Part shown: positions 8,634 to 32,759 of the stretch, piece after piece | Numbering within the stretch: position 1 is the stretch's first letter | Layout of the letters: the number at the start of each line of letters is the position of its first letter | Origin: Anaerolineae bacterium | GTDB taxonomy: Bacteria > Chloroflexota > Anaerolineae > J102 | Direction of reading: 5' to 3' | DNA: 34,396 nucleotides | NCBI GenBank assembly: GCA_026991225.1 | Contig: JALXCB010000184.1 | Span: forward strand, 1-34,396 | Notes under the pieces: generated by a model | Told to the model about the DNA's origin: nothing | Seen by the model: the letters and a program-made list of their open reading frames with translations, nothing else | Database searches by the model: none | Program-made: the position numbers and the translations under genes

Positions 8634-9332
8634 TCAAAGCAACGCGGCCAGGAATTCAGCGGGATGGAGGAGGTGGGGCGTGTCTTTGCCACGGAACAAA
8701 TGCCCCAGTCGCCACAGACAGCCCGGCTCGTGCACGAGGATGGCGTCGGCCCGACTGTGCAGCAGGGGCGCGGCGATGGTTTCGGCGATGGCCCCGGCGA
8801 TATCGGGATGGCGGCGAGAAAGATCGTGGCTGAAGCTGCAACAGCGCACGGGCGATCGTAGAATGGTCAGGCCGGGGATGGCTTCGAACAACGAGCGACA
8901 CACGTCGCAACCTGGCGCGTTGCACACATCCAGAAGGACGATCCTGCCTTCATAGCGAAGCTGATGGCCTCCCAATCTCTCAGAGTGCTCGCCCACCAGG
9001 GAGCACCAGCTTCGGGCTTTTTGGGCCAGCGCCCGAGCCTCTGCGGCCAAAGGGTCCGCTGCCAGCAGGTCGGGGATATGTTGCTGGAACATGGTCAGGC
9101 AGGCGGTGGAGGGCGTGACCACGGCCTCCGCGTCTTGGAACAGGCGCACGGTGTGCCGGGCCGCATCCCGAGCCGCGTCCTCGAACCCGGCTTCCCAGGC
9201 AGGCAGCCCACAGCAAGTCTGACCCTTTGGGATGGTCAGCTCCCAGCCCAGCGCCTGGCCCACGCGCTGCATGGCCTGCATGAGCTGCGGGCGATGGGCC
9301 TGAACCAGGCAGGGCGCGTGGAGGGCGATCAT
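8634..9332 (-). CDS. LutA-like protein with two cysteine-rich (CCG) domains
   Basis: 232 residues, the length of LutA/YkgE. Half one has C8, QTCCG (C40, C41), SGF-like EAGFEDAARDAARHTV and PSTACLTM (C78), closely following the LutA pattern for binding a cubane Fe-S cluster. Half two has C137, C142, C145, RCCSFS (C164, C165) and PGCLW (C205). The second CCG is CCS, a departure from the family. LutA works with LutB and LutC in L-lactate oxidation; neither is present here, so an electron-carrier or other oxidoreductase role is equally possible. The ATG at 9332 lies in a 14-bp sequence duplicated at the 3' end of tyrS. Before that duplication the start probably overlapped the tyrS stop as ATGA. 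Confidence 0.82.
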   Translation of the reverse strand: MIALHAPCLVQAHRPQLMQAMQRVGQALGWELTIPKGQTCCGLPAWEAGFEDAARDAARHTVRLFQDAEAVVTPSTACLTMFQQHIPDLLAADPLAAEARALAQKARSWCSLVGEHSERLGGHQLRYEGRIVLLDVCNAPGCDVCRSLFEAIPGLTILRSPVRCCSFSHDLSRRHPDIAGAIAETIAAPLLHSRADAILVHEPGCLWRLGHLFRGKDTPHLLHPAEFLAALL

Positions 9333-9385
9333 GCGAGAGAGCGAGAGAGCGAGGGGGCGAGGGGGCGAAGGGGGCGATCATGCGA
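9323..9385. repeat. 8-bp word element flanked by 14-bp direct repeats
   Basis: GGGCGATCATGCGA occurs at 9323-9336 and again at 9372-9385. Between them are 35 bases which on the minus strand read as CGCCCCCT words followed by CGCTCTCT words. The left copy carries the start of the LutA-like gene and the right copy the stop of tyrS. A related word array lies inside the O-antigen ligase gene (31923-31994). Confidence 0.85.
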
Positions 9386-11343: not shown

Positions 11344-11430
11344 TTTTCAGTGTGCAGTGTATCGGCCAAGCGCGGAAGGGCAGACCAACGCATTCACTGA
11401 CTACTGAATACTGATAACTGAATACTGTTA
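11344..11430. repeat. Word repeat cluster (CAGTG/ACTGAATACTGA)
   Basis: CAGTGTGCAGTG at 11350-11361 and, after a GC-rich spacer, ATTCACTGACTACTGAATACTG and AACTGAATACTG. Same word family as 6292-6320, in the opposite sense at the right side. It lies directly upstream of the promoter of the methyltransferase gene. Confidence 0.6.
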
Positions 11431-20741: not shown

Positions 20742-20857
20742 GACATTTTAGCCCAGCGAGCTAAAAGTTACACAGAGTTCACTGAACTGTTCCGAAAATA
20801 ACGTTTGTTGGTTTGCAAAAGCAACTCGAAGCCCACGTTGGGCGAGGGCAACGGACG

Positions 20858-20915
20858 TGATGCGTGAAACGTGAAACGTGAGCATCTTACGCATCACGTT
20901 TCACGGTCCGCCAGC
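20858..20915. repeat. Word palindrome (GTGATGCGTGAAACGTGA family), copy 3
   Basis: GTGATGCGTGAAACGTGAAA on the left pairs with TTACGCATCACGTTTCAC on the right. The right flank (GGTCCGCCAGCCTGGC) is the reverse complement of the sequence that precedes copy 2 at 12138 and encodes the methyltransferase tail. Confidence 0.75.
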
Positions 20916-28155: not shown

Positions 28156-29133
28156 TTAGCTGGTGGGGGCGGTGCGATGGATGGCCTGGCCATTGCCGTC
28201 TTGTCCTTGACCGTGGCCGTTGTCCTGGCCGCCCTGGCCGCCGCGGCCCTGGCCATGTCCGCCGCCCTGACCGTGGCCGCCGCCCTGACCGTGGCCGCCG
28301 CCCTGACCGTGGCCGCCGCCCTGACCGTGACCGTGGCCGTTGCCCTGGCCGTGGCCGTTGCCGCCCGCCATGATGGCGTCATAGGCGGCCTGGTCCAGGT
28401 ATTGCGGGGTGTAGGTCTCGCCGGTGACCATCTCGTAGGTGCGGGAGAAGGCCCGCAGGTGGCTTTTGGAGCCGGACATCAGGCTGTTGTACACTTGCTG
28501 GATGTCAGCGTTGTCCGTGTCGGCAATCGCCCGCTCCAGGTCCTGGATATCGATCTCCTCGATGGCTCCGCCCACCAGAAGGGCGTCCGCCTGGGACTGA
28601 CTACCCTGTTCGATGAGCTGGTCATACAGCGCTTGCAGTTCGGAGTTGGTGAAGACGCCCACCGGGTTGTCGCCCACCGGGTCTTCGATGCCGTAGCGGT
28701 CCAGCAAGAGGCCAACGGCGTCCATGTGCTGCTGTTCGGCGTTGCTGATATGCGTGAAGACCTGGATGTCCCACTGTTCGCCCAGGGTGATGTACACGTC
28801 TCGGGCCAGCTTCTCTTCCTCACGCATCCACAGCAGGTCTGCGATCTCCTGGTCATCCACATCCCCAGCGGGAGGGAGATTCGTCAGATTCTGGGTCTGG
28901 GCCTGATGGGCTGCGCCCTGGCCCTGAGAGCCTTGGGCCGCCTGGCCATAACCCCCGTCCTGCTGCAAGGGCGTCTGGGCCACAGTCGTATCCGCCATTG
29001 TCTGCACAACGGGAGCGGGATTCGTGGTGGTCAGTTCGGCGCTATCCGCCTCGGCGGACGTGCCGCAGGCCGCCAGGGTCAGCGCCAATGCGCCAACTGC
29101 GAGGGTTGCAATGAAAGTCTTGGTGCGTTTCAT
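28156..29133 (-). CDS. DUF2202 ferritin-like lipoprotein with Gly-His-Gln-rich tail
   Basis: 325 residues; GGAGG precedes the ATG at 29133. Lipobox LAAC (Cys23) anchors it outside the membrane. A Gln/Ala/Thr linker (24-85) leads to the DUF2202 domain (about 92-255), a four-helix ferritin-like bundle with E105/E106 (MREEEKLARDVY), E133-x-x-H136 (AEQQHMDAVG), E192/E193 and SKSH with H225, consistent with a metal site although not a full canonical diiron set. Residues 258-312 are GHGQGG repeats with about 10 histidines, a plausible metal-binding tail. Function of the family is unknown. An operator-like repeat array lies 111-155 bp upstream and is shared with the cytochrome pseudogene. A long frame on the opposite strand is a shadow. 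Confidence 0.88.
   Translation of the reverse strand: MKRTKTFIATLAVGALALTLAACGTSAEADSAELTTTNPAPVVQTMADTTVAQTPLQQDGGYGQAAQGSQGQGAAHQAQTQNLTNLPPAGDVDDQEIADLLWMREEEKLARDVYITLGEQWDIQVFTHISNAEQQHMDAVGLLLDRYGIEDPVGDNPVGVFTNSELQALYDQLIEQGSQSQADALLVGGAIEEIDIQDLERAIADTDNADIQQVYNSLMSGSKSHLRAFSRTYEMVTGETYTPQYLDQAAYDAIMAGGNGHGQGNGHGHGQGGGHGQGGGHGQGGGHGQGGGHGQGRGGQGGQDNGHGQGQDGNGQAIHRTAPTS
28264..28335. repeat. 18-bp tandem repeat coding the GGGHGQ tail
   Basis: Unit GCCCTGACCGTGGCCGCC repeats almost exactly four times inside the DUF2202 gene. Repeat number is likely to vary between strains by slippage, in frame. Confidence 0.85.
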
Positions 29134-30467: not shown

Positions 30468-32759
30468 ATGTCCCGCCGTAAACGCCGCCTATCGGCCGCC
30501 ACCCGCCCTCGGGGTCTCGCGCCCGCGCCCCACGAGATGGCGCTGCTCCTGGCCCTGGTCGCGGTCCCCGCCCTGTTCAACATCCAGAGCGGGGCCAGCT
30601 TCGAGCCGGACAAGGCCGCGATGCTCGTGTCGCTGGCCGCCGTGGCCCTGGCCGCGCGGCTGTGGCGGGCCTGGCGCCAGCCCCAGCGACTGGAGATCAC
30701 ATTTCCGATGGTCATGCTGGCGGGCCTGGCCCTGTGGGCGGTGATCGCCACCCTGGCGTCCATCGATCTCGTCACCAGCGTGTGGGGGAATTATGACCGG
30801 GGCTACGGGCTGCTGGTCGTGCTGGCGGGGTTCGTGTTTCTGGGCGTCGCCTGGGAGATGACGCGGGCGGGAAAGGGTTGGAGCCTGGTGGATGCCGCCA
30901 TCCTGGGCGCGGCGATCCCCATTTTCTACGGATACATGCAGATGCTGGGGCTGGACCCGGTGCGGGGCTTCGGGATCAGCTTTCCACTGGGCGAGCGCGC
31001 AGCCTCGACCCTGGGCAATCCCCTCTACCTGGGGGATTATCTCCTACTGGCGGGCGTCCTCCTCCTGGCCCGACGCCTCCTGCAACCGCCCGACGCCCCT
31101 CTCGCCCGCCATCTCCTCACCCTGACGCTGCTCCTCACGGGCGGCCTGCTGCTCCTCACCTTCAGCCGCAGCGCCTACCTGGGCCTTGCTGCGGCCATGG
31201 CGGTCTTCGCCCTCTTCTGGTGGGATGGGCGTCGCCGCCGGGGCGAAGCCGGGCGTCTGGATCGCTGGGTGTTGGTGGGCGCGCTGATGGCGGTGGGGCT
31301 GGGAGCCGCGGGCATGGTCATCCTGTGGCCGCGGTTGCAGCATGGGGGCACGCTGCAACAACGCCTCCTCATCTGGCAGGCGGTTATCGATCTGTTGCAG
31401 GCCCGGCCGCGGGCGCTGCTGACGGGCCTGGGCTTCGACACGCTGCCCCTGGTCCTTGCGCCCCATCTGTCTCCCACGCTGGCCCACTTCGAACCCGACT
31501 GGGCCTTCCGCATCCCCGACCGGGCCCACGCGTTGCCCCTGGAGATGGTGACCATGGCCGGGCTGCCCTGGCTGCTGGGGTGGGCGGCGCTGGCGGGATG
31601 GACGCTTTGGCGGCTGGGGCGGCGGGCGCATCCCCTCGCGCCCTTCCTGGCCGCGGCCATCCTGGGCCGGGCCGCGCTGCTGCTGGTCAGCTTCCCTACC
31701 CACGCGCCCGATCTCCTCTTCTGGGCCATCCTGGGCATGGCGCTGGCCCTGGCCGCCGCGCCTCCAAAAGCGCCCGACCCCTGGCCCGACGCTGTTCCCA
31801 TCCCCCTCGATGGGGAGGCGTGGGCGCTGCTGGCCGTCGCCGCATGGGGAACCTTCGGCTTCAGCCTCAGCGCGGCCTGGCCCGGCGGCCTTTGGCTCTG
31901 GCTGCTGGCCCTCGCGCCTCTGCTCGCCCTGGCCTATGCCCTCTCGCCCCCTCGCCCATTCGCCCCCTCGCCCATTCGTCCCCTCGCCCTGGCCATCCTC
32001 TTCCTCCCCGCTATCCTCCTGAACCAGCGCATCGGCCCGCCCGCGCTGTTGGCCTGGATCTGGCTTCACGGCGTCCTCATCCTGACTGCATTCCTCCCCG
32101 CCTTCGTTCGCGGTTCCAGGCTCGCACTTCAGCGCGCCCTCCTCCTGGCTGTAACGACCCTCGCCCTGGCCCTGCTGCTCACGGCCACGGTGCAGCGCCC
32201 CCGCCTGGGCGACATCGCCTACAAGAGCGCCTGGCTGGCTTCCGACCCCAACCAGCGCGACCTCAATTTGCACCGGGCGTTGACTCTGGCCCCTTATGAC
32301 CATGTCATGGCCGCGGGCATGGCCTGGATCGAGGCCCAGCGGGTGGAAGCAGAGGATGCGTGGGGTGATGAAGCGCGTTTGCAGGGCATTAGCGCACTCT
32401 ACCAGCGGGCCATCGCGGCCCAACCCCTCGCGCCTGAGCCAGTGATGGGCTACGCCCGCTGGCTGGCCCGCCTGCCCAACGCGCACCCCCACGCCCTGGC
32501 CATGTTCGACCGGGGCCTGGCCCTCTCTCCCAACGACATTCAGGCCCTGAACGACCGGGCCATGGAGCTGGCCGCGCTGGGCCGCCCCCACGACGCCCTG
32601 GCCGAACTCCAACGCATCCTCGCCCTCGATCCGCTCTACGGCCCCACCTACGGGCATCTGGCCCGGGTCTACCGCCAGCTTGGGGATGAAGACGCCGCGC
32701 GGGCGATTTTGGAGGCGGGCCGGGCGAAGGTCCCCTGGTGGGAGCCAACGGATCACTGA
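30468..32759 (+). CDS. O-antigen ligase-like (Wzy_C) membrane protein fused to TPR domain
   Basis: 763 residues. About 12 or more hydrophobic segments between 22 and 580. The periplasmic-loop signature of the O-antigen ligase/polymerase family is seen in RAASTLGNPLYLGDYLLL and LLLTFSRSAYLGL, followed by RLLIWQAVIDLLQARPRALLTGLGFDT and RAHALPLEM. The soluble C-terminus (about 595-763) has TPR-like helices (ALAMFDRGLALSPNDIQALN, DALAELQRILALDPLYGPTY, HLARVYRQLGDEDAARAIL). It probably joins glycans to a lipid or protein carrier outside the membrane. A 20-residue segment LSPPRPFAPSPIRP between two membrane helices comes from an in-frame 8-bp word element with 12-bp direct repeats (31923-31994). 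Its stop abuts the stop of HyuB with no gap. Confidence 0.87.
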   Translation: MSRRKRRLSAATRPRGLAPAPHEMALLLALVAVPALFNIQSGASFEPDKAAMLVSLAAVALAARLWRAWRQPQRLEITFPMVMLAGLALWAVIATLASIDLVTSVWGNYDRGYGLLVVLAGFVFLGVAWEMTRAGKGWSLVDAAILGAAIPIFYGYMQMLGLDPVRGFGISFPLGERAASTLGNPLYLGDYLLLAGVLLLARRLLQPPDAPLARHLLTLTLLLTGGLLLLTFSRSAYLGLAAAMAVFALFWWDGRRRRGEAGRLDRWVLVGALMAVGLGAAGMVILWPRLQHGGTLQQRLLIWQAVIDLLQARPRALLTGLGFDTLPLVLAPHLSPTLAHFEPDWAFRIPDRAHALPLEMVTMAGLPWLLGWAALAGWTLWRLGRRAHPLAPFLAAAILGRAALLLVSFPTHAPDLLFWAILGMALALAAAPPKAPDPWPDAVPIPLDGEAWALLAVAAWGTFGFSLSAAWPGGLWLWLLALAPLLALAYALSPPRPFAPSPIRPLALAILFLPAILLNQRIGPPALLAWIWLHGVLILTAFLPAFVRGSRLALQRALLLAVTTLALALLLTATVQRPRLGDIAYKSAWLASDPNQRDLNLHRALTLAPYDHVMAAGMAWIEAQRVEAEDAWGDEARLQGISALYQRAIAAQPLAPEPVMGYARWLARLPNAHPHALAMFDRGLALSPNDIQALNDRAMELAALGRPHDALAELQRILALDPLYGPTYGHLARVYRQLGDEDAARAILEAGRAKVPWWEPTDH
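31923..31994. repeat. 8-bp word element with 12-bp direct repeats inside the ligase gene
   Basis: CTCGCCCTGGCC at 31923-31934 and 31983-31994, 60 bp apart (20 codons). Between them are CGCCCCCT, CGCCCATT and CGTCCCCT words in 8-bp steps. The frame is kept. Same word type as 9323-9385. Confidence 0.85.

Follow-up and report, generated by a model that had tools for sequence, protein, structure and literature searches.

The window (the whole stretch of DNA that was analysed, 34,396 nucleotides) carries an O-antigen-ligase-like gene that contains an array of six octamers of the type TCGCCCNN, which reads as a GGGCGA-type word on the other strand. The sequence-only reading of this DNA had placed such words in frame inside this gene, and the array was found where it had put them. 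The two variable letters (NN) of the six words are, in order, CC, AT, CC, AT, CC, and TG, and the fifth word (CC) has a single core mismatch, TCGTCC. The 8-bp register was evident from Tandem Repeats Finder (TRF) output, which gave period 8/16 at 31938-31989, and the two-word pattern CGCCCNNTCGCCCNNT had four matches in the window as compared with 0.02 expected from dinucleotide shuffles. A further array lies at a junction next to a tyrS-like gene. The names tyrS, recG, glycosyltransferase, hisG, and feoA were assigned here by reading translations and are to be taken as presumptive. The coordinates of all features are collected in Table 1.

Table 1. Genes, octamer arrays, and 12-mer copies in the window
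Feature	Position	Strand	Remark
Octamer array of TCGC type	9333..9377	-	Between tyrS-like (tyrosyl-tRNA-synthetase-like) gene and next gene
Gene with start codon 4 bp past the array	8634..9332	-	Orthologous in relatives
O-antigen-ligase-like gene with C-terminal TPR repeats	30468..32759	+	Pfam Wzy_C above its cutoff; TPR by Pfam
First CTCGCCCTGGCC copy	31923..31934	+	Leu-Ala-Leu-Ala codons; not a target-site duplication
Six-word TCGCCCNN array	31944..31991	+	In frame in ligase gene; no gap versus five orthologues
Second CTCGCCCTGGCC copy	31983..31994	+	Overlaps last word of ligase array
Third CTCGCCCTGGCC copy	32160..32171	+	Same ligase gene

Searches of the whole genome showed that the words are not confined to these two places. 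Paired words (TCGCCCNNTCGCCC) gave 35 matches as compared with 2 for a backwards control, and a three-word pattern gave 10 as compared with 0. A tolerant search of a 422-kb sample detected ten arrays as compared with zero in five first-order shuffles; some of the contigs that went into the sample were known beforehand to contain words, and the density of arrays in it is therefore not a genome average. The statement that the same words occur at unrelated loci was thus borne out by the paired-word counts; local slippage alone does not explain their recurrence. According to a custom-built gene caller, seven of the ten sampled arrays were intergenic, and three lay within genes, namely in the ligase, in a recG-like gene (in its low-complexity N-terminal linker), and in a glycosyltransferase-like loop. 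Six of the intergenic arrays have a gene nearby, and every one of these ended in the interval from 28 bp before the start codon to 2 bp inside it; the C-rich strand was sense and the G-rich strand antisense. Because the intergenic repeats tend to directly precede starts in this orientation, they may act as leader or G-quadruplex elements. A strict G4 pattern was present in six of the ten sampled arrays and failed in the other four; in the ligase arrays of word-bearing relatives it was present in one species (G004) and absent from another (G007). Among 298 genomes of the class, the three-word pattern was found in 25, with a patchy distribution. In distant families of the class, for example in G246, G138, G198, and G081, homogeneous TCGCCCAT arrays, with NN always AT, were among the matches listed.

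The ligase array had been interpreted as an insertion of 20 codons bounded by a 12-bp duplication. Two exact copies of CTCGCCCTGGCC are indeed present in frame at a spacing of 60 bp (31923 and 31983). However, a third copy occurs at 32160, and in the relatives the sequences at the two places are unequal, the identity being specific to this genome (G000). A target-site duplication was ruled out on these grounds. Exact 12-mer pairs of this spacing are nothing special, and such pairs are not rare: a 388-kb sample contained 96 positions with exact 12-mer repeats 30-100 bp apart, and the window contained 11, a single long repeat being counted several times. The gene was then compared with its same-genus orthologues. 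The five closest that could be aligned, those of G004 (76% identical to the ligase of G000), G007, G001, G005, and G008, all possess an equally long segment, with zero gaps over the array and no empty site among them, an outcome that the sequence-only reading had itself named as speaking against an insertion. Thus, no 60-bp insertion occurred in the ligase within the genus, and the claim of 20 added codons was not supported. A sixth same-genus orthologue (G003) was more divergent and gapped over the array, and more distant family members differed by only a few residues in this region.

Words were recognized in the ligases of three related species, G000, G004, and G007, the latter two bearing NN letters other than those of G000; clear words were not seen at the array site of G001, G005, and G008 in the orthologue alignment. 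In both the G000-G004 and the G000-G007 comparison, 3 of 36 word-core sites differed as compared with 7 of 12 NN sites (nominal Fisher p 0.0009). The two sets of sites have an identical codon-position make-up in these comparisons, and the word core changes less than the remainder of the ligase gene. Between G004 and G007, 3 of 12 NN columns differed (Fisher p 0.09). The low divergence of the core and the high divergence of the NN letters, as seen in three related sequences, fit a maintenance of the word at the DNA level, although constraint acting on the linker as protein may have a share in the conservation.

We favor, with moderate confidence, the explanation that the ligase array is an old, in-place array of the genome-wide degenerate octamer, residing in a tolerant linker, where it is probably carried along as a passenger and contributes a Pro-rich loop. 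The words would persist via period-8 slippage or conversion among neighboring words, and gains and losses would have to be balanced, since gaining or losing one or two words on balance shifts the reading frame. This proposal would not account for the arising of the ancestral array at unchanged length, and it must be held against it that the word core could also be kept by selection on the residues of the linker, and that the array is known from three related species, two of which, G004 and G007, are little diverged from each other even in the NN columns.

Indeed, the repeated linker might be maintained by protein selection, the core being conserved for its residues and not by a DNA process. 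The residues S-P-x-R-P-x-A-P are conserved among G000, G004, and G007, and the conservation of third positions at core sites, where 1 of 12 and 2 of 12 differed, is on its own weak evidence for a DNA-level process given the few sites. The orthologues of G001, G005, and G008, however, do not have these residues, and the same core is found in the intergenic words, which serve no protein. We consider protein selection as the sole cause unlikely.

Comparison of other sites between species widens the picture. At the tyrS junction, the sequence-only reading had seen a second, independent case of an array bounded by perfect direct repeats (9323-9385). The array and its flanking TCGCATGATCGCC copies are present; the copies lie close to the 8-bp register, with one 9-bp step, and hold the stop codon of the tyrS-like gene and the start codon of its neighbor. 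The junction has the same layout in a degenerate form in G004, a short stretch in G002, TTGACAATT-type sequence in G007 and G006, and TCAGTNN and CACTTGC words in G005. In view of the register and of the relatives' layouts, it is plausible that slippage produced the flanking repeats as additional words, and insertion is also possible there. Words upstream of hisG and feoA were seen only in G000 among the relatives examined. Long regions rich in words precede a radical-SAM-like gene in G000 and G005, and none was found by tblastn in G004, G001, and G007. In the glycosyltransferase-like loop (L085:3861-3924, G000:C8), which lies between hydrophobic stretches, G000 has TCGCCCNN words in frame and exceeds by seven codons the loop of G004, which is without words; words of the TCAGTNN type occur in frame in G001, G006, and G007, and the loop is shorter in G003. 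These differences between species lend support at this locus to the broader suspicion that words may enter genes and alter proteins, of which the ligase is not an example.

Several other word families populate the same genome. Four-word TCAGTNN matches numbered 124 in G000 (1 in the control) and 1114 in G005 (5 in the control), the latter count being approximately nine times that of G000 and far above those of other genus members. Approximately 96 intergenic arrays of degenerate 6-9-bp words were found in approximately 90 kb of intergenic DNA of the 422-kb sample, with families including CGTAATG, CACCTGC, AATCCT, TCAGTNN, and GGTCTACC; examples lie at 11396-11427 and 20855-20881 of the window. 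An exact inverted partner of at least 12 bp within 150 bp accompanied 24 of the 96 arrays as compared with 10 with a reversed-flank control, and thus some families seem to form hairpins with arms made of words. A tandem repeat of another kind, with approximately five copies of the 18-bp unit GCCGCCGCCCTGACCGTG, lies inside a predicted gene at 28240-28363 of the window. It is conceivable, but quite doubtful in our estimate, that an unknown templated process copies arrays of several unrelated families from locus to locus, such that one site, be it an intergenic junction or a protein loop, receives different families from species to species and, inside genes, the core is kept at the DNA level while the reading frame fixes the length.

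Another possibility is chance, because a linker of Ser, Pro, Arg, Leu, and Ala written in preferred GC-rich codons resembles repeated words. The linkers of the relatives are likewise Pro/Ser-rich, and CCC, CGC, and GCC are preferred codons. When the linker peptide of G000 was back-translated with the codon usage of the genome, however, the observed word count was reached in 0 of 20,000 trials; the observed array was reached in 0 of 20,000 trials for G007 and in a fraction of 0.0003 for G004, i.e. in at most 3 of 10,000 trials for each of the three species. Coincidence through codon bias was rejected on this basis; the same words are, moreover, found between genes, and chance is very improbable as an explanation. 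Least credible of all, with hardly any probability left to it, is a tiny mobile or templated sequence that lengthened the ligase by 20 codons and duplicated a 12-bp target: the occurrence of words at unrelated loci, the other sites with words in one species and none in relatives, and the in-frame differences of the glycosyltransferase-like loop agree with it, but, as judged from the aligned sequences, it is refuted for the ligase gene by the five same-genus ligases of equal length, two of them with shared words, and the G000-specific identity and third copy of the 12-mer also oppose it. The result corrects a likely misreading of the array as an insertion with a duplication. The ligase linker, the glycosyltransferase-like loop, and the tyrS and hisG junctions provide concrete sites at which to ask how words spread and persist.

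The TCGCCCNN words form a dispersed family of short degenerate repeats, and repeats of this kind are known from other bacteria. Cyanobacterial STRR sequences are short imperfect tandem words between genes, and the present arrays are like them in this general layout. A description of a TCGCCCNN-type word in Chloroflexi was not found in the literature searched, subscription journals being mostly outside the search.

The GGGNATC repeats of Xanthomonas and Nostoc are quadruplex-forming, consist of a short degenerate unit with a G tract, and are dispersed genome-wide with an enrichment in non-coding DNA; most of them lie on the antisense strand no more than 50 bp ahead of ORFs, and many arrays have four or more G tracts (PMC4692102). 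Like them, GGGCGANN is short, is arranged in tandem, has a G tract of three or more, and is dispersed at many loci, and the six sampled intergenic GGGCGANN arrays that have a gene nearby are all start-proximal with the G-rich strand antisense. In contrast to the 7-bp GGGNATC, the unit here has 8 bp, GGGCGA plus two variable letters, and the host belongs to the Chloroflexota; GGGCGANN would therefore work like those repeats but is not a member of their sequence family. A further difference from these quadruplex-forming repeats, judged from sequence alone, is the failure of the strict G4 pattern in 4 of the 10 sampled arrays.

TAACTGA heptamers, known from Beggiatoaceae, Cyanobacteria, and Bacteroidetes, lie mostly within several nucleotides of start codons, are patchy across lineages with occasional copies in genes, and give stops in all forward frames (PMC4679880). 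The TCGCCCNN arrays are likewise start-codon-proximal, patchy, and sometimes genic, and a word similar to TAACTGA, TCAGTNN, is abundant in this genus. Unlike TAACTGA, TCGCCCNN is a different word whose arrays give no forward stops, and reverse stops only if NN is TA. With the arrays described here, the known range of start-codon-proximal G-rich short repeats is extended to a genus of the Chloroflexota.
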